DNA from: Rhodocyclales bacterium
GTDB lineage: Bacteria > Pseudomonadota > Gammaproteobacteria > Burkholderiales > Rhodocyclaceae
Direction of reading: 5' to 3'
Assembly (NCBI GenBank): GCA_016214145.1
Contig: JACRPA010000002.1
Span: forward strand, 558,001 to 622,000
Length of the DNA: 64,000 nt
The notes beneath the pieces were generated by a model. That model was given only the letters and a program-made list of their open reading frames with translations, was not told where the DNA came from and did not search any database. The translations under genes and the position numbers were made by a program. Below, piece after piece: positions 25,244-31,831 of this stretch (position 1 is the stretch's first letter; every line of letters starts with the position of its first letter).

Positions 25244-25797
25244 TGTTAACGGCCCTTCTCGTCATGGCCGGCATCGCCGTGGTGCTCGGCGCGATGCTCG
25301 GCTTCGCCTCGATCCAGTTCAAGGTGAAGGGCGATCCGCTGGTGGACAAGATCGACGCCATCCTGCCGCAGACGCAATGCGGCCAATGCGGCTTCCCCGG
25401 CTGCAAGCCCTACGCGCAGGCCATCGCCAAGGGCGAGGCCGAGATCAACCAGTGCCCGCCGGGCGGCGAGGAAGGCATCCGCAAGCTGGCCGATCTCCTC
25501 GGCAAGGAGTTCAAGCCGCTTTCCGCAGAACACGGCGTGGAAAAGCCGAAGCAGGTGGCCGTCATCGACGAGAACCTGTGCATCGGCTGCACCTTGTGCA
25601 CCCAGGCCTGCCCGGTCGACGCCATCGTCGGCGCGGCCAAGCAGATGCACACCATCGTTGCGCCGCTGTGCACCGGCTGCGAGCTCTGCGTGCCGCCCTG
25701 TCCGGTCGACTGCATCGCCATGGCGCCGGTGGCTGAGACGGTGGAAACCTGGAAGTGGCGCTACCCTGTCATTCCGATCCGGGAGAAGGCAGCATGA
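25243..25797 (+). CDS. rnfB: Electron transport complex subunit RnfB
   Basis: A 184-residue ferredoxin-like subunit. An N-terminal membrane helix (about 3-25) precedes the four-Cys motif [18 protein letters not shown]...CPPGG, and then two 4Fe-4S ferredoxin motifs, [16 protein letters not shown] and [16 protein letters not shown]. It feeds electrons into the Rnf complex. The stop codon is the first triplet overlapped by the R5 repeat, which separates it from rnfC. Confidence 0.96.
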
Positions 25798-25906
25798 GCG
25801 CCGCCCGCAGGACCGTCCCAAGGGCGGCGCAGACAACAACCCGGAGCCGCGTAGCGGCGAACCACCGTCACCCCCTTCCTCGGGAAGGGGGCGGGGGAAT
25901 GGCCCG
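25794..25906 (+). repeat. Intercistronic structured repeat R5, copy a (rnfB-rnfC)
   Basis: About 113 bp starting at ATGAGCGCC over the rnfB stop and ending just before the rnfC GTG. It contains three hairpins: GCGCCGCCC with GGGCGGCGC; GCCGC-GTA-GCGGC; and CCCCCTTC with a GAAGGGGG-type arm. The layout aligns end to end with copy b at 30606, and stem differences between copies are compensatory. Short reading frames through it are not conserved. Confidence 0.85.
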
Positions 25907-27595
25907 GTGATCGCCGCCCTCTTCAAGTTCCGCGGCGGCGTCAAGCCGGCCTCGCACAAGGACGAATCGACGCAGGCGCCGATCGCCCGCGCGCCGCTGC
26001 CGCCCCGGCTGATCGTGCCGCTGCGCCAGAGCGCGGGCGGCACGCCGCAGCCGCTGGTGACGGCCGGGCAGAAGGTGCTCAAGGGCGAGCGCATCGGCGC
26101 CCCCGAGAGCGATTTCTCCGCCGCCATCCATGCGCCCACTTCCGGCAAGGTGCTGGCAGTCGAGCCGCGCTTGCTGCCGCATCCCTCGGGCCTCGCCGCG
26201 CCCTGCGTCGTAATCGAACCGGACGGCGAGGAGCGCTGGATCGATCGAACCTCCGTCAGTTACGCCTCGGAAACGCCGGACGTTCTGCGCGGCCTGCTGC
26301 GCGACGCCGGCATCGTCGGCCTCGGCGGGGCGACCTTTCCCAGCCACCTCAAGCTGAAGCCGGGGACTTCCGGCCGCATCGGGACGCTGATCATCAACGG
26401 CGCCGAGTGCGAGCCGTGGATCACCTGCGACGACCTGCTGATGCGCGAGCGGGCCGATGAAATCGTCAGCGGCATCGCCATCCTCCGCCATATCGCTTCG
26501 GCGGACCGCGTTCTGGTCGGCATCGAGGACAACAAGCCGCAGGCCATCGCCGTCCTGCGCGCCGCCACCGCGCAATCGGCCGGCATCGAAGTCATGCCGG
26601 TGCCGACGCGCTATCCGGCCGGCGGCGAGAAACAACTGATCCGCGTCCTCACCGGCATCGAGATCCCCTACGGCCGCTTCGGCACCGAGTTCGGCGTGCA
26701 GTGCTTCAACGTTGGCACGGCCTGCAGCGTGCACCGCGCCGTCGAACTGGGCGAGCCGCTGGTCTCGCGCATCGTGACGCTCAGCGGCAACGTCGAGCAT
26801 CCCGGCAATTTCGAGGTGCTGGTCGGCACGCCGATCGACGAACTGCTGAAGCTGGTCAAGCCTAAGGCCGACACTGACCGCTTTATCATGGGCGGCCCGA
26901 TGATGGGCTTCACCCTGCCGCGCACCGACCTGCCGGTGACCAAGGCGGCCAACTGCATCCTCGCCGCCAGTCCGGCGCTGTTTCCGCCGCAGGGCCCGGA
27001 GATGCCCTGCATCCGCTGCGGCGCCTGCACGCGCGCCTGTCCCGCCGAGCTGCAGCCGCACGAGCTGTACTGGTTCTCCCGCGCAAAGAACTTCGGCAAG
27101 GCCCAGGAGTACGGCATCTTCGACTGCATCGAGTGCGGCTGCTGCGCCTACGTCTGCCCCTCCAACATTCGCCTCGTGGATTACTACCGCTTCGCCAAGT
27201 CCTCCATGCGCACGCTGGAGCGCGACAAGGCCGCCTCGGATGCGGCGCGCATGCGCTTCGAGTTGCGCAACCAGCGCGAAGAGCGCGACAAGGCCGAGAA
27301 GGCGGCGCGCCTGGCCGCCAAGACCGCGGCCGGACGGCAGGCCGTCGTTGCGCCGGCTGCGCCGGCTTCGACGCCGGCCACGCCCGAAACGACCGTCTCC
27401 CTGCCGCCGCTCGATGAAGCCAAGAAGGCATTGATCGCCGCCGCCATCGCCCGGGCGCAAGCGCAGAAGGAAGGCGTGCAGCCGAAGAACATCGACAACC
27501 TGACGCCGGAAAAACAGGCCGAGATTCGCGAGATCGAGTCGCGCCGCGCCAGGGTGCGCGAACTGGCGAAGACGCCGCCCGAGGAACCTGTATAA
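25907..27595 (+). CDS. rnfC: Electron transport complex subunit RnfC
   Basis: A 562-residue peripheral subunit with the NADH/FMN-binding RnfC domain (GGATFPSHLKL, LIINGAECEPWITCDD) and two 4Fe-4S motifs, CIRCGACTRACPAEL and CIECGCCAYVCPSNI, followed by an Ala/Lys-rich tail that is much shorter than in E. coli RsxC. GTG 25907 (MIAALFKFRGG) is chosen because FKFRGG is where RnfC proteins begin; everything upstream in the frame is R5 repeat and rnfB shadow. Confidence 0.93.
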   Translation: MIAALFKFRGGVKPASHKDESTQAPIARAPLPPRLIVPLRQSAGGTPQPLVTAGQKVLKGERIGAPESDFSAAIHAPTSGKVLAVEPRLLPHPSGLAAPCVVIEPDGEERWIDRTSVSYASETPDVLRGLLRDAGIVGLGGATFPSHLKLKPGTSGRIGTLIINGAECEPWITCDDLLMRERADEIVSGIAILRHIASADRVLVGIEDNKPQAIAVLRAATAQSAGIEVMPVPTRYPAGGEKQLIRVLTGIEIPYGRFGTEFGVQCFNVGTACSVHRAVELGEPLVSRIVTLSGNVEHPGNFEVLVGTPIDELLKLVKPKADTDRFIMGGPMMGFTLPRTDLPVTKAANCILAASPALFPPQGPEMPCIRCGACTRACPAELQPHELYWFSRAKNFGKAQEYGIFDCIECGCCAYVCPSNIRLVDYYRFAKSSMRTLERDKAASDAARMRFELRNQREERDKAEKAARLAAKTAAGRQAVVAPAAPASTPATPETTVSLPPLDEAKKALIAAAIARAQAQKEGVQPKNIDNLTPEKQAEIREIESRRARVRELAKTPPEEPV

Positions 27596-27597
27596 AT

Positions 27598-28623
27598 ATG
27601 AACGGCTCTCCACACCTCCATCTGCCGATCAGCGTCCGCCTCGTCATGCTCAAGGTGCTGGCCGCCCTGCTGCCGGGCATTGCGGTCTACGTCTGGTTCT
27701 TCGGCGCGGCGATCCTCGTGCAGATCGCCCTGGCCTCCGCCGCGGCGCTGGCCGGCGAAGCGGCCATGCTCAGGCTGCGCGGCAAGCCGGTGGGACTGTT
27801 CCTCGCCGACGGCAGCGCCCTGGTGACGGCCTGGCTGATCGCCCTGACCTTCCCGCCCATCGTGCCCTGGTGGCTGACCGTGTCGGCGACCCTGTTCGCC
27901 ATCGTCGTGGCCAAGCATCTCTACGGCGGACTCGGCCAGAATCCCTTCAACCCGGCCATGGTCGCCTTCTGCATTTCCATCATCGCCTTTCCGGCCCTCA
28001 TGTCGCAGTGGCCGGCGGTCGGCTTCACCGATTTCGCCGCCCAGATGGGCGTCGTCTTCCAAAGTCAGTCCCCGCAGGACGCCGTCACCATGGCCACGCC
28101 GCTCGACGCCCTGCGCACCTCGCTGCACACGCCGGAGGCGCGCGCCACCGTGGCCGGCATCCTCGGCTCGCACGCCACCTTCGGCAACATCGGCGGCAAG
28201 GGCTGGGAGTGGATCGCCCTGGCCTACCTCGCCGGCGGCCTCTGGCTGCTGCAGCAGCGCATCATCACCTGGCACGTGCCGGTCGCCTTCCTCGGCGTGC
28301 TGGCGCTCATCGCCACCGGTTTCAGCCTCGGCAACCCGGAGCGCTACGCCGGCCCGACCTTCCATGTCATCACCGGCGGCGCCATGCTGGGCGCCTTCTT
28401 CATCGCCACCGACCCGGTCTCCGGCGCCACCACGCCGCGCGGCAAGCTGATCTTCGCCGCCGGCATCGCCCTGCTCACCTGGATCATCCGCACCTTCGGC
28501 GCCTACCCGGACGGCATGGCCTTCGGCGTGCTGCTGATGAACCTGTGCGTGCCGCTCATCGACATGGGCACCCAGCCGCCGGTGTTCGGGCACAAGGACG
28601 GGAAGCGGGACGGCGCGCCATGA
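27598..28623 (+). CDS. rnfD: Electron transport complex subunit RnfD
   Basis: A 341-residue integral membrane protein with about nine helices. The FMN-attachment region reads QDAVTMATPLD, whose Thr is the usual phosphoester-linked FMN site, and the conserved GGLGQNPFNPAM and FIATDPVSGATTPRGK are present. It lies 2 bases after rnfC and overlaps rnfG as ATGA. A copy of the dispersed 24-bp word is embedded at 28061, just before the FMN motif. Confidence 0.95.
   Translation: MNGSPHLHLPISVRLVMLKVLAALLPGIAVYVWFFGAAILVQIALASAAALAGEAAMLRLRGKPVGLFLADGSALVTAWLIALTFPPIVPWWLTVSATLFAIVVAKHLYGGLGQNPFNPAMVAFCISIIAFPALMSQWPAVGFTDFAAQMGVVFQSQSPQDAVTMATPLDALRTSLHTPEARATVAGILGSHATFGNIGGKGWEWIALAYLAGGLWLLQQRIITWHVPVAFLGVLALIATGFSLGNPERYAGPTFHVITGGAMLGAFFIATDPVSGATTPRGKLIFAAGIALLTWIIRTFGAYPDGMAFGVLLMNLCVPLIDMGTQPPVFGHKDGKRDGAP
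28061..28084 (+). repeat. Dispersed 24-bp word, copy 2 (in rnfD)
   Basis: AAAGTCAGTC, then CCCGCAGG, then ACGCCG. In frame it encodes QSQSPQDA, in the loop just before the FMN-binding motif. Confidence 0.6.
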
Positions 28624-29303
28624 CGGAACAGAACGCCGCCCGCGTTTCCCTGCGCACCGCCGCCATCCTGACGCTGTTCACCGTGCTATTCACCACCCTC
28701 ATGGCGGCGACCTACCAGGCCACCAAACCGGCCATCGAAGCCAGCGCCGAAGCGGAAAAGCTGAAGCTGGTCGGCGAAGTCCTGCCTGCCCCTCTCTACG
28801 ACAATGCCCTGCTGGCCGATTACGTCGACGTGGCGCCGCGCGCCGAACTCGGCCTCGCCGCCCAGGACGATACGGTGCGCGTGTTGCGCGCCCGCCGGGC
28901 CGGTGCCCCGGCGGCCCTGGTGTTCGAGGCCGTGGCGCCGGACGGCTACGGCGGCAAGATCCGTCTCATCATCGCTGTCGGCGCGGACAACCGCCTGATC
29001 GGCGTGCGCGTGGTCAGTCACAAGGAGACGCCCGGCCTGGGCGACTACATCGACCCGAAGAAGGACCGCAACAAGTCGGCCCCCTGGATCAGGCAGTTCG
29101 ACGCGACCGGTTTCGGGGAAGTGCCGATCGCCGGCTGGAAGGTGAAGAAGGACGGCGGCCGCTTCGACGCCCGCGCCGGCGCCACCATCAGCGCCCGCGC
29201 CGTGACGAACGCCGTTGGGCGCGCCCTGCAATTCGCCGCGGACCACCGCGACAAACTCTACGCACTTCCGGCACAATCTGTTATGGAGAAGGAAGGCCAA
29301 TGA
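28620..29303 (+). CDS. rnfG: Electron transport complex subunit RnfG
   Basis: A 227-residue subunit with one N-terminal membrane helix (about 13-33) and a periplasmic FMN-binding domain. The conserved VVSHKETPGLGDYI and the FMN-attachment region AGATISARAVTNAV are present. Start ATG 28620 overlaps rnfD, and the stop overlaps rnfE, both as ATGA, so the genes are translationally coupled. Confidence 0.95.
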   Translation: MTEQNAARVSLRTAAILTLFTVLFTTLMAATYQATKPAIEASAEAEKLKLVGEVLPAPLYDNALLADYVDVAPRAELGLAAQDDTVRVLRARRAGAPAALVFEAVAPDGYGGKIRLIIAVGADNRLIGVRVVSHKETPGLGDYIDPKKDRNKSAPWIRQFDATGFGEVPIAGWKVKKDGGRFDARAGATISARAVTNAVGRALQFAADHRDKLYALPAQSVMEKEGQ

Positions 29304-29965
29304 ACTACCGCGAAATCGCCCACAACGGGGTCTGGAAGCAGAACACCAGCCTGGTGCAACTGCTCGGCCTCTGCCCGCTGCTCGCCGTCAGCACGACCTT
29401 CGTGAACGGCGTCAGCCTCGCCATCGCCACCATCTTCGTCATGGCCCTGGCCAGCGGCGTGGTGGCCAGCGTGCGCAGCTTCATTCCCCGCGAGATCCGC
29501 ATCCCGGTGTTCATCCTCATCATCGCCGCGCTGGTGACGATGGTGGATCTCGCCATGAACGCCTGGCTGCACGAGCTGTACCTGGTGCTCGGCATCTTCA
29601 TCCCGCTCATCGTGGTGAACTGCATCGTGCTGGCGCGCGTCGAGGCCTTCGCCGCCAAGAACACGCCGCTGGTCGCCGCCTGGGACGGCGCCATGATGGG
29701 CGTCGGCATGGTGGCGGCCATCGCCGTGCTGGGCGGCCTGCGCGAGCTGATCGGCACCGGCCTGCTGTTCTCCGGCATCGAGATGGTGATCCCCGGCACG
29801 CGCGCCCTGCAGGTGCTGCCGGCGGACTACCCGGGCTTCCTCGTCGCCATCCTGCCGCCCGGCGCCTTCCTCGTGCTCGGCTTCCTGATCGCCGGGCGCA
29901 ACTGGCTGGATGCCCGCGCCGCCCAGCGCGCCCGCCTGGCCGTACCCGCGCAAGCCCCCGCCTGA
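29300..29965 (+). CDS. rnfE: Electron transport complex subunit RnfE
   Basis: A 221-residue integral membrane protein related to RnfA/NqrD, with six helices. It starts NYREIAHNGVWKQNTSLVQL and carries LLGLCPLLAVSTTFVNG and VNCIVLARVEAFA, with the cysteines that hold the shared Fe-S cluster with RnfA. ATGA overlap with rnfG. The C-terminal Ala/Arg tail is slightly extended. Confidence 0.95.
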   Translation: MNYREIAHNGVWKQNTSLVQLLGLCPLLAVSTTFVNGVSLAIATIFVMALASGVVASVRSFIPREIRIPVFILIIAALVTMVDLAMNAWLHELYLVLGIFIPLIVVNCIVLARVEAFAAKNTPLVAAWDGAMMGVGMVAAIAVLGGLRELIGTGLLFSGIEMVIPGTRALQVLPADYPGFLVAILPPGAFLVLGFLIAGRNWLDARAAQRARLAVPAQAPA

Positions 29966-29973
29966 GCGCCGCG

Positions 29974-30609
29974 ATGACGCCGAAGAAAGTCCGCACGATC
30001 TTCGAGCGCTTCGCGCAGGCCAATCCCGCCCCGACCACCGAACTTGAATACAAGACGCCCTACCAGTTGCTGGTGGCGGTGATCCTCTCCGCCCAGGCCA
30101 CCGACAAGAGCGTGAATCTGGCCACGCGCGACCTCTTCAAGGCGGCCGGCACGCCGCAGAAGATGGCGCGCCTCGGCGAGGCCGGACTGACCCCCTACAT
30201 CAGCCGCATCGGCCTCTACAAGTCGAAGGCGAAGAACGTCGCCGCCATGTCGGCCATCCTGCTGGAACGGCACGGCGGCGAAGTGCCGAACGATCGCGCG
30301 GCGCTGGAGTCCCTGCCCGGCGTCGGCCGCAAGACCGCCAACGTCGTGCTGAACACAGTCTTCGGCGAACCGACGATCGCCGTCGATACCCACGTCTTCC
30401 GCCTGGCCAACCGTTCGCGCCTCGCCCCCGGCAAGGACGTGCGCGAGGTGGAGGACAAGCTGCTCAAGGCCATTCCCGGGGAATTCCTCGCGAATGCCCA
30501 CCACTGGCTGATCCTGCACGGCCGCCATGTCTGCAAGGCCCTGAAGCCGGATTGCCCGCGCTGCCTCATCCACGACCTGTGCGAATGGCCGGAGAAAACC
30601 GCGGGATGA
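29974..30609 (+). CDS. nth: Endonuclease III
   Basis: A 211-residue DNA glycosylase/AP lyase for oxidised pyrimidines. The helix-hairpin-helix LPGVGRKTANVVL contains the catalytic Lys, VDTHVFRLANR has the catalytic Asp, and the C-terminus has the Cx6Cx2Cx5C [4Fe-4S] motif CKALKPDCPRCLIHDLC. It follows rnfE by 8 bases, the same gene order as in E. coli rsxABCDGE-nth. The R5 repeat copy b starts at its stop codon. Confidence 0.97.
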   Translation: MTPKKVRTIFERFAQANPAPTTELEYKTPYQLLVAVILSAQATDKSVNLATRDLFKAAGTPQKMARLGEAGLTPYISRIGLYKSKAKNVAAMSAILLERHGGEVPNDRAALESLPGVGRKTANVVLNTVFGEPTIAVDTHVFRLANRSRLAPGKDVREVEDKLLKAIPGEFLANAHHWLILHGRHVCKALKPDCPRCLIHDLCEWPEKTAG

Positions 30610-30718
30610 GCGCCATCCGCCGGGCCGTCCCAAGGATGGCGCAGCCAACGACATGGAGCCGCATGGCGGCGAACAACCGTCACCCCCGCCCGCGGGGCGG
30701 GGGCCGGGGGGTGGGTAC
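30606..30718 (+). repeat. Intercistronic structured repeat R5, copy b (nth-FIST)
   Basis: It aligns end to end with copy a at 25794. It begins with ATGAGCGCC over the nth stop and ends next to the FIST start. Hairpins: GCGCCATCC with GGATGGCGC; GCCGC-ATG-GCGGC; CCCCCGCCC with GGGCGGGGG. The stem bases that differ from copy a change on both sides of each stem. Confidence 0.85.
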
Positions 30719-31831
30719 ATGACTCTGATCGCTACCGCCCTGGCCAGCGCCGACAAGGTCGAGCCCGAACTGGCCGCCGATGTCGTGCGTGCGGCGCTCG
30801 AGCGCGCCGGCATCGGCATCGCCCATAGCGTACTGCTGTTCCTCAGTGCGGATTTCGCGCACCAGGCCCACGCCGCCGTGCTGGCCGCCTCGCGCGCAGC
30901 GCACTGCCTGCAGGTGACCGGCTGCACCGCGCCGGGCGTGTTCACCGAGGAGGACTGGGTGCTCGACCGCCCCGCCGCCTGCGCCATGGTCTTCGGCGGC
31001 GACTGCGGACTGGCGGCCCATCCCGAGGCGGACGCCCCGCTGCTCACCCTGGCCGCGCCGAACGCCGCCACCCGCGGCTGGCTGGAGAGCGGCGGACAGC
31101 GCTACGGCCTGCTGTCGACCGACAACAGCGCCCACGGCGCGGGCCGCATCTGGTGTCACGGCAAGATGGCCGCCGAAGGGCGCTGCGAAACGGCGATCGC
31201 CGGCGCGCGCGCGGCGATCGGCGTCTCCCGCGGCATGCGCATCCTGTGCGAACCGCGCCAGGCGACCGTCAACGGCCGCGACGTGCTGAAGACGGGAAAG
31301 CATCCTGCGCTCAATGCGCTGCTGCGCGAATTGCCGCTGGAAATGCGCGAACTGGAGAAGCTGCCCTTCCACCTGCTGGCGGCCGGCATCGTCAAGGGCC
31401 GGCCGGAACGCGCCATCGAGGAAGGCCGCTATGCCCTGGCGCCGATCATCGCCGCCAGCCACGATGAACGCTCGGTCACGCTGTCCGTGCCGCTGGAAGC
31501 CGATGCGCAGGTATTCTGGGCGATGCGGCAGGGCCTGGCGGCGGAAAACGACATGCGCCGGCTCGCCGGCGAACTGGCGGACCGGCTCGGTGCGACGCCG
31601 GACTTCGGCCTGATCTTCTCCTGTCTCGGCCGCGGCCCCTATTTTTTCGGCGGCGAGGACCGCGACCTGGCCGTGGTCAAGGAACGCTTCCCGGGGATGC
31701 CGCTGATCGGCGCCTATGGCGGCGGCCAGATCGCCCCTCTCTTCGACGGCAATGGCCAGGTGCACAACGCCGCCGTCCTCGCGTTATTCGACGCCCGTAC
31801 CCTGGAATCAAAAGCGGGCACCCGTGTTTAA
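30719..31831 (+). CDS. FIST domain protein
   Basis: A 370-residue protein with FIST_N (about 30-210) and FIST_C (about 215-360) regions, ending with the typical FGLIFSCLGRGPYFF and PLIGAYGGGQIAP. FIST domains are proposed small-ligand sensors of signalling proteins; here the protein is stand-alone and soluble. I chose ATG 30719 because the frame upstream is R5 repeat. Its stop region overlaps the DUF1841 start by 8 bases. Confidence 0.88.
   Translation: MTLIATALASADKVEPELAADVVRAALERAGIGIAHSVLLFLSADFAHQAHAAVLAASRAAHCLQVTGCTAPGVFTEEDWVLDRPAACAMVFGGDCGLAAHPEADAPLLTLAAPNAATRGWLESGGQRYGLLSTDNSAHGAGRIWCHGKMAAEGRCETAIAGARAAIGVSRGMRILCEPRQATVNGRDVLKTGKHPALNALLRELPLEMRELEKLPFHLLAAGIVKGRPERAIEEGRYALAPIIAASHDERSVTLSVPLEADAQVFWAMRQGLAAENDMRRLAGELADRLGATPDFGLIFSCLGRGPYFFGGEDRDLAVVKERFPGMPLIGAYGGGQIAPLFDGNGQVHNAAVLALFDARTLESKAGTRV

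Follow-up and report, generated by a model that had tools for sequence, protein, structure and literature searches.

The DNA analysed here, a 64,000-nt window of contig JACRPA010000002.1 from a Rhodocyclales bacterium, carries two copies of a 113-bp repeat, each lying on the forward strand at the junction of two forward-strand genes. Copy 1 (25794..25906) is found between rnfB (25246..25797, 183 aa) and rnfC (25907..27595, 562 aa), for which frame calling gives GTG 25907 as the most likely start, and copy 2 (30606..30718) is found between nth (29971..30609, 212 aa) and a FIST-domain gene (30719..31831). All four gene names are backed by Pfam, with FeS and Fer4_21 matching RnfB, RnfC_N and Complex1_51K matching RnfC, HhH-GPD matching Nth and FIST_C matching the last. 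The copies are identical at 88 of 113 positions in an ungapped alignment; both open with ATGA, the last three bases of which serve as the stop codon for RnfB or Nth, and both finish at the base preceding the next start codon, GTG 25907 or ATG 30719. This confirms an earlier note on the sequence, which had described two 113-bp copies running exactly from stop to start. In copy 1, the opening ATGA (25794..25797) forms the left border of the putative insertion and GTGA forms the right border, and in copy 2 a further in-frame ATG of the FIST-domain gene, at 30653, falls within the element (open reading frame 30653..31831).

The two copies fold into the same three hairpins, with z-scores relative to shuffled sequences of -3.9 and -2.1, respectively. 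In copy 1, hairpin 1 (25798..25830), which is supported by the fold and by pair counts, consists of a 9-bp stem and a 15-nt loop, GCAGGACCGTCCCAA; hairpin 2 (25846..25858) has a 5-bp stem in the fold, GCCGC/GCGGC; and hairpin 3 (25871..25891), supported by the fold and by conserved columns, has a 9-bp stem, CCCCCTTCC/GGAAGGGGG, with CGTCA 5' of it. A G-rich right end follows (25892..25906), the final bases of which vary ahead of the start codon. The fold of copy 2 places hairpin 1 at 30610..30642 (stem GCGCCATCC/GGATGGCGC, loop GCCGGGCCGTCCCAA), hairpin 2 at 30658..30670 and hairpin 3 at 30683..30703 (stem CCCCCGCCC/GGGCGGGGG, again with CGTCA 5' of it). Where the stems of the two copies differ, both sides are altered together. 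The three shared hairpins and their compensatory double changes, both claimed from these two copies at the outset, are thus real, and the stems also covary across the wider family.

A family of structured repeats

The family is much larger than chance would produce. Searching the source genome with blastn returned at least 40 matches, the 40 scored all having E <= 6.4e-7, and a covariance model built from 33 copies, the type of search proposed in the earlier note, identified at least 44 strong copies above 57 bits and a further nine weak hits of 31-37 bits among 150 scored candidates. Fifteen other genomes of the genus contain between 1 and 75 matches each, and eight genomes from other genera of the family contain 59, 5, 0, 2, 2, 57, 1 and 1. 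Among the sister genomes, G002 and G004 are rich in copies and G001 and G009 poor, and Ca. Desulfobacillus denitrificans is one of the copy-rich species. A search of 16 genomes outside the family returned zero matches, and in a sample of 300 genomes from the order, which we take to be probably Burkholderiales by GTDB and in which up to 12 candidates were scored per genome, one member of another family (G106) harbors type I copies, some of them in tandem. Among the matches listed, named records are mostly assigned to Rhodocyclales, Rhodocyclaceae, Sulfuritalea or Sterolibacterium. Tandem copies also occur in several places besides G106; head-to-tail arrays are present at L105, L106, L113 and G106:C1:601493-601826, and the units at L105 and L106 share one TCAT or ATGA.

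Across the family, the stem of hairpin 1 is highly variable and its loop nearly constant (GCCGGGCCGCCCCAA); hairpin 2 varies too, and hairpin 3, which lies 3' of a CGTC, is steadier. The GTCA 5' of hairpin 3 is kept in at least 90% of the 33 aligned rows and the preceding C in fewer, at least 70% by the alignment marks. Of the nine pairs of this hairpin, the two at the outer end are C-G, one in 32 rows and the other in all 33. Both partners change at 15 of the 24 pairs in this alignment, which has a covariation score of 0.345 compared to 0.123 in shuffles. An additional 91 copies, drawn from 80 of the 108 loci in other records, have 95.5% of stem cells paired (75.0% in shuffles) and a covariation score of 0.453 (0.120 when shuffled, and at most 0.056 when alignments were slid by 1-3 columns), counts that are biased toward the structure because the rows were aligned to the model. 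Broken pairs exist, and helix 1 is paired in 83.0% of cells in the 33-row set and 92.3% in the 91-row set.

If RNA pairing were the constraint that maintains these stems, G.U cells should exceed A.C cells on the strand that is read. The 91-row set contains 32 G.U and 38 A.C cells and thus gives no sign of RNA-specific tolerance, whereas the set from the source genome leans the opposite way, with 25 G.U and 11 A.C. With both sets summed (57 versus 49), there is no clear RNA signal.

Copies concentrate at stop/start junctions in both orientations

To describe placement, we called flanking frames with a codon model trained in this analysis for 134 copies, five of which were dropped for short flanks, leaving 43 from the source genome and 86 from others. 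The large majority of these 129 copies lie between co-directional genes (117; 62 sense and 55 antisense), with nine between convergent and three between divergent genes. The upstream stop codon ends at model position 7-10 in 38 of the 62 sense copies, and at exactly position 8 in 29 of them; in 24 of the 55 antisense copies, a start codon of the opposite strand has its first base at position 6-8. Under a strict stop/start rule applied on both sides, 57 of 129 copies are placed exactly (33 sense and 24 antisense). ATGA is present at both borders in 16 of the 33 strict sense copies, and TCAT at both in 9 of the 24 strict antisense copies.

The two orientations also differ in what they place ahead of the downstream gene. 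Among antisense copies, 28 of 55 have CTCC in the left stem arm, compared to 6 of 62 among sense copies (P = 1.3e-6), and in the antisense copies this arm reads as GGAG(G) on the gene strand, directly ahead of the start, while sense copies have a G-rich purine run (GGGGGGAAGG) ahead of the next start. Ribosome-site matches of at least five bases are found in 20 of 24 strict antisense copies and 13 of 33 strict sense copies, compared to 115 of 2000 random stretches (5.8%), and matches of at least four bases are found in 25 of 33 strict sense copies compared to 433 of 2000 random stretches. These matches bear out the proposal that the start that follows takes its sequence context from the element. 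In three cases (L011, L013 and L128), an ATG within the element is the only start in the right frame that was found close to the border.

Sister genomes mostly lack a copy at these junctions

No copy is present between rnfB and rnfC in any of the 11 sister genomes whose junction could be read. Between nth and the FIST-domain gene, 10 of 12 sister genomes lack a copy, and nine of these 10 have an NTGA overlap there; of the remaining two, G011 has a copy whose hairpin 1 loop contains additional sequence, and G012 reads ambiguously. This operon contains a copy between rnfG and rnfE in G002 and G010. These two genomes also have, at rnfE-nth (L196 and L198), a form that lacks hairpin 1 and begins TGAGC or TGAGTC.

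Candidate empty relatives were available for 28 distinct copies, from which three tandem and two non-co-directional copies were removed, leaving 23. For 11 of these 23 copies, an NTGA overlap with both frames open lies no more than 30 nt from the site in the closest empty relative, and for 13 such an overlap is present in any empty relative. On a strict reading nine sites are firm (L013_6010, L018, L021_2212, L069, L097_2604, L132, L139, L158 and copy 2); copy 1 is mixed, and L095 and L124, although within the 11, are not counted as firm. NTGA overlaps join 41 of 450 co-directional neighbours (9%) in 1.0 Mb of G001, a background obtained with a crude caller of reading frames, against which the enrichment has P = 1.7e-6 for 11 of 23 and P = 1.1e-4 for 9 of 23.

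Probable insertion of a mobile repeat at gene overlaps

Because sister genomes mostly lack copies at these junctions and the copies in the operon differ by species, the element is best read as an inserted mobile repeat. We consider it probable that the element is non-autonomous, that it inserts preferentially at stop/start overlaps and that it persists there because it is tolerated and not as a fixed operon signal. Such a repeat, of ~105-115 bp with three hairpins and no gene of its own, would be inserted in either orientation by an enzyme supplied from elsewhere, perhaps through recognition of its hairpins, with a preference for NTGA overlaps. With NTGA on both sides after insertion, neither the stop of the upstream gene nor the start of the downstream gene would be lost. 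For the most part, each orientation has its own subfamilies: sense copies place their purine run before the next start, and antisense copies often bring GGAG(G) through the CTCC arm. Since stop, start and ribosome-site context would all be kept, insertions would be tolerated and could accumulate, with the likely side effect that two translationally coupled genes become separated. If this is correct, a small mobile DNA exploits the 4-bp gene overlap, a rare harmless spot in a dense bacterial genome, translational coupling is altered in many operons at once, and the repeats offer a measurable case of subfamilies suited to the strand they occupy.

The earlier interpretation is partly supported by these data. 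Structure-preserving change and stop/start placement hold: most stems pair and placement is far from random, such that the stem-breaking changes and random placement named in the earlier note as grounds for rejecting its reading were largely not what we found, although some pairs are broken and placement is not uniform. Conserved operon control is not supported, given that almost every sister genome lacks a copy at the junctions in question, that two other species have copies at different junctions of this operon and that both orientations occur.

Several observations weigh against a mobile repeat aimed at overlaps. The strict two-sided rule fails in 72 of the 129 copies, 12 of which are not between co-directional genes, and the closest empty relative has no NTGA overlap for 12 of the 23 copies with empty sites. 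At the copy 1 junction, the empty sites read ATGAT in G004, G011 and G012 and TGATG in the other eight genomes. One copy (L009:6835-6945, minus strand) lies in frame within a coding gene, which we read as alpha/beta-hydrolase-like, and adds ~35 residues, although intragenic copies are rare and this is the one clear case. The first bases of the two flanking tetranucleotides agree in 19 of 33 sense copies where shuffles give 17.1 (252 of 1000 shuffles reach the observed value) and in 13 of 24 antisense copies where shuffles give 13.8, and as there is no copy-by-copy agreement above shuffles, true target duplication is not proven; NTGA on both sides may be a target duplication or may be brought by the element. 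Terminal inverted repeats are absent from both window copies, the left end of copy 2 (GCGCCATCCG) being unmatched by its right end (GGGTGGGTAC). We found no mobilising enzyme for the element, and noticed no autonomous relative or parent transposon with the same ends, for which no dedicated search was made.

Alternative explanations

An account in which the repeat inserts at random, and selection purges the copies that break genes, is rather unlikely but the most probable of the alternatives. It would explain the copies found where neighbouring genes do not overlap, those between convergent genes and the one that sits in frame in a gene, and it agrees with the 12 of 23 closest empty relatives that lack an NTGA overlap. 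It does not readily explain why 9 to 11 of 23 sites fall at 4-bp overlaps when 9% of co-directional neighbours have them by the crude caller, nor why copies with the CTCC arm occur mostly in one orientation even though the sense orientation should tolerate them too. A separate possibility is that the stem arms are kept complementary not by selection but by template-switch correction between the arms, a process known as quasi-palindrome correction. The small overall excess of G.U over A.C across the two sets is in keeping with this idea, as is the orthologous pair L102/L129 (flanks 97% identical), in which hairpin 1 differs by one double change and one broken pair. However, this is just one such pair read closely, and stems recur among copies as if inherited; we regard correction as an unlikely source of the pairing. 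That stems are copied from their own targets was hinted at by L088, where TCAGTCG (7 bases) stands on both sides, and by L306, the stem of which contains the first codons of a gene; we set this possibility aside because similar stems recur in other copies and thus look inherited. It may still hold, since agreement past the 4-bp border stands above shuffles in sense copies (2 of 1000 shuffles), though not in antisense copies (516 of 1000).

It is highly improbable that the repeat acts in cis as a conserved RNA by which rnf and nth transcripts are regulated at the level of processing, stability or translation. Strong structure-preserving variation, intercistronic placement and the G.U excess within the source genome are what such an element would predict, yet the sister-genome junctions are empty, copies occur in both orientations, the 91-row set lacks a G.U excess and no Rfam family reaches threshold in the window. 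We rejected a regulatory RNA fixed in the rnf operon on account of the empty junctions. A known RNA family was also rejected, as no Rfam match in the window reaches the curated threshold; weak hits near copy 1 and near a short-form copy have E of 0.2 and above. Mobilisation as a repetitive extragenic palindromic (REP) sequence or bacterial interspersed mosaic element (BIME) by a REP-associated tyrosine transposase (RAYT; Y1 transposase, PF01797) also appears improbable. RAYTs insert 3' of one fixed tetranucleotide, a rule to which the two orientations of the repeat relative to ATGA are ill suited. Moreover, RAYT presence does not follow the copy number of the element: four genomes that are 85-98% complete and contain 56-75 copies each (G004, G008, G011 and G021) have no Y1 match. 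The source genome has three Y1 matches, which would fit this mechanism, as would a hairpin-built element without inverted-repeat ends, but the one whose surroundings were read (L042:1380-1940) is flanked by its own CGGCCGGTAGGCCGCTCC repeats, which are unlike the element. Together with the copy-rich genomes in which no Y1 match was found, this makes a RAYT as sole mobiliser improbable, and we rejected it. The CGTC tag of hairpin 3 also recalls the CGTC REPs (PMC3733652). A plasmid or phage vehicle was rejected, as copy 2 has no match in a plasmid collection or a phage collection.

Relation to known repeats

The element works like REPs and like the repeats that resemble miniature inverted-repeat transposable elements (MITEs), and fails features of each, lacking the inverted-repeat ends of MITEs and the A/T pairs, loop and CCA of CGTC REPs. 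CGTC-tagged REPs are short hairpin repeats in which a 9-bp stem follows an unpaired CGTC, have no dedicated transposase known and lie beside or at times within genes, all of which are shared features (PMC3733652). They also have an 8-9 bp stem with A/T pairs in the first and second position, a loop of 4-5 nt and a CCA tail (PMC3733652). Our element differs in having three hairpins in ~110 bp, outermost pairs that are C-G and not A-T, a 3-nt loop, a G-rich tail in place of CCA and sites at stop/start overlaps.

ERIC, Correia, RUP and YPAL are likewise non-autonomous, shorter than 200 bp, structured and mostly intergenic, with occasional fusion to reading frames, and YPAL has both empty and filled sites (PMC2229807). 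Most of these have inverted-repeat ends, TA and A+T-rich composition, unlike our GC-rich element with NTGA on both sides and no inverted-repeat ends; YPAL comes nearest in being without TA, and its duplications span 3-26 bp (PMC2229807). The Chunjie MITE of Geobacter differs in its length of 178-235 bp and in its conserved terminal inverted repeats (PMC10969869). We recognised no description of the element in the literature searched, which consisted mostly of papers outside subscription, and make no claim that it is absent from print. Rickettsia palindromic elements insert in frame inside genes. The L009 copy resembles them in this respect, but such insertion is rare here.

A shorter form and variant copies

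The weak covariance hits represent a second form of the repeat, in which the same hairpin 1 is joined to a short 3' part such as GCCCCCTCGGGGGGCAGCGAACGAAGTGAGCGTGGGGG. A strict pattern for this short form is found in 19 of the 300 genomes of the order, corresponding to 14 of 135 genera and eight families, and the reversed control pattern is found in 0. Short-form stems have a mean of 5.2 bp paired, compared to 1.4 with shuffled partners (29 copies). Copies of the second form are present at L233-L241 (G000) and at L297-L356.

A more ambitious extension, which we consider decidedly unlikely, is that a hairpin superfamily spread across one order inserts by recognising the stop/start junction, and that the variable stem of hairpin 1, capped by its constant loop, would be an interchangeable guide dictating where and in which orientation the element inserts, subfamilies with different stems choosing ATGA or TCAT and carrying the matching ribosome-binding site. 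A hairpin of this design common to eight families of one order would point to an enzyme.

Some copies depart from the standard three-hairpin layout. Extra modules are nested in the loops of hairpin 1 or 2 at L019, L020, L025, L030, L037, L193 and L242, and several of these modules have a common GAAGTACTC-like motif. At L014, L103, L137, L157 and L160, a GGGTTTCGCGGAGCACTGCTCCGCGC-like hairpin sequence stands in place of the right end.

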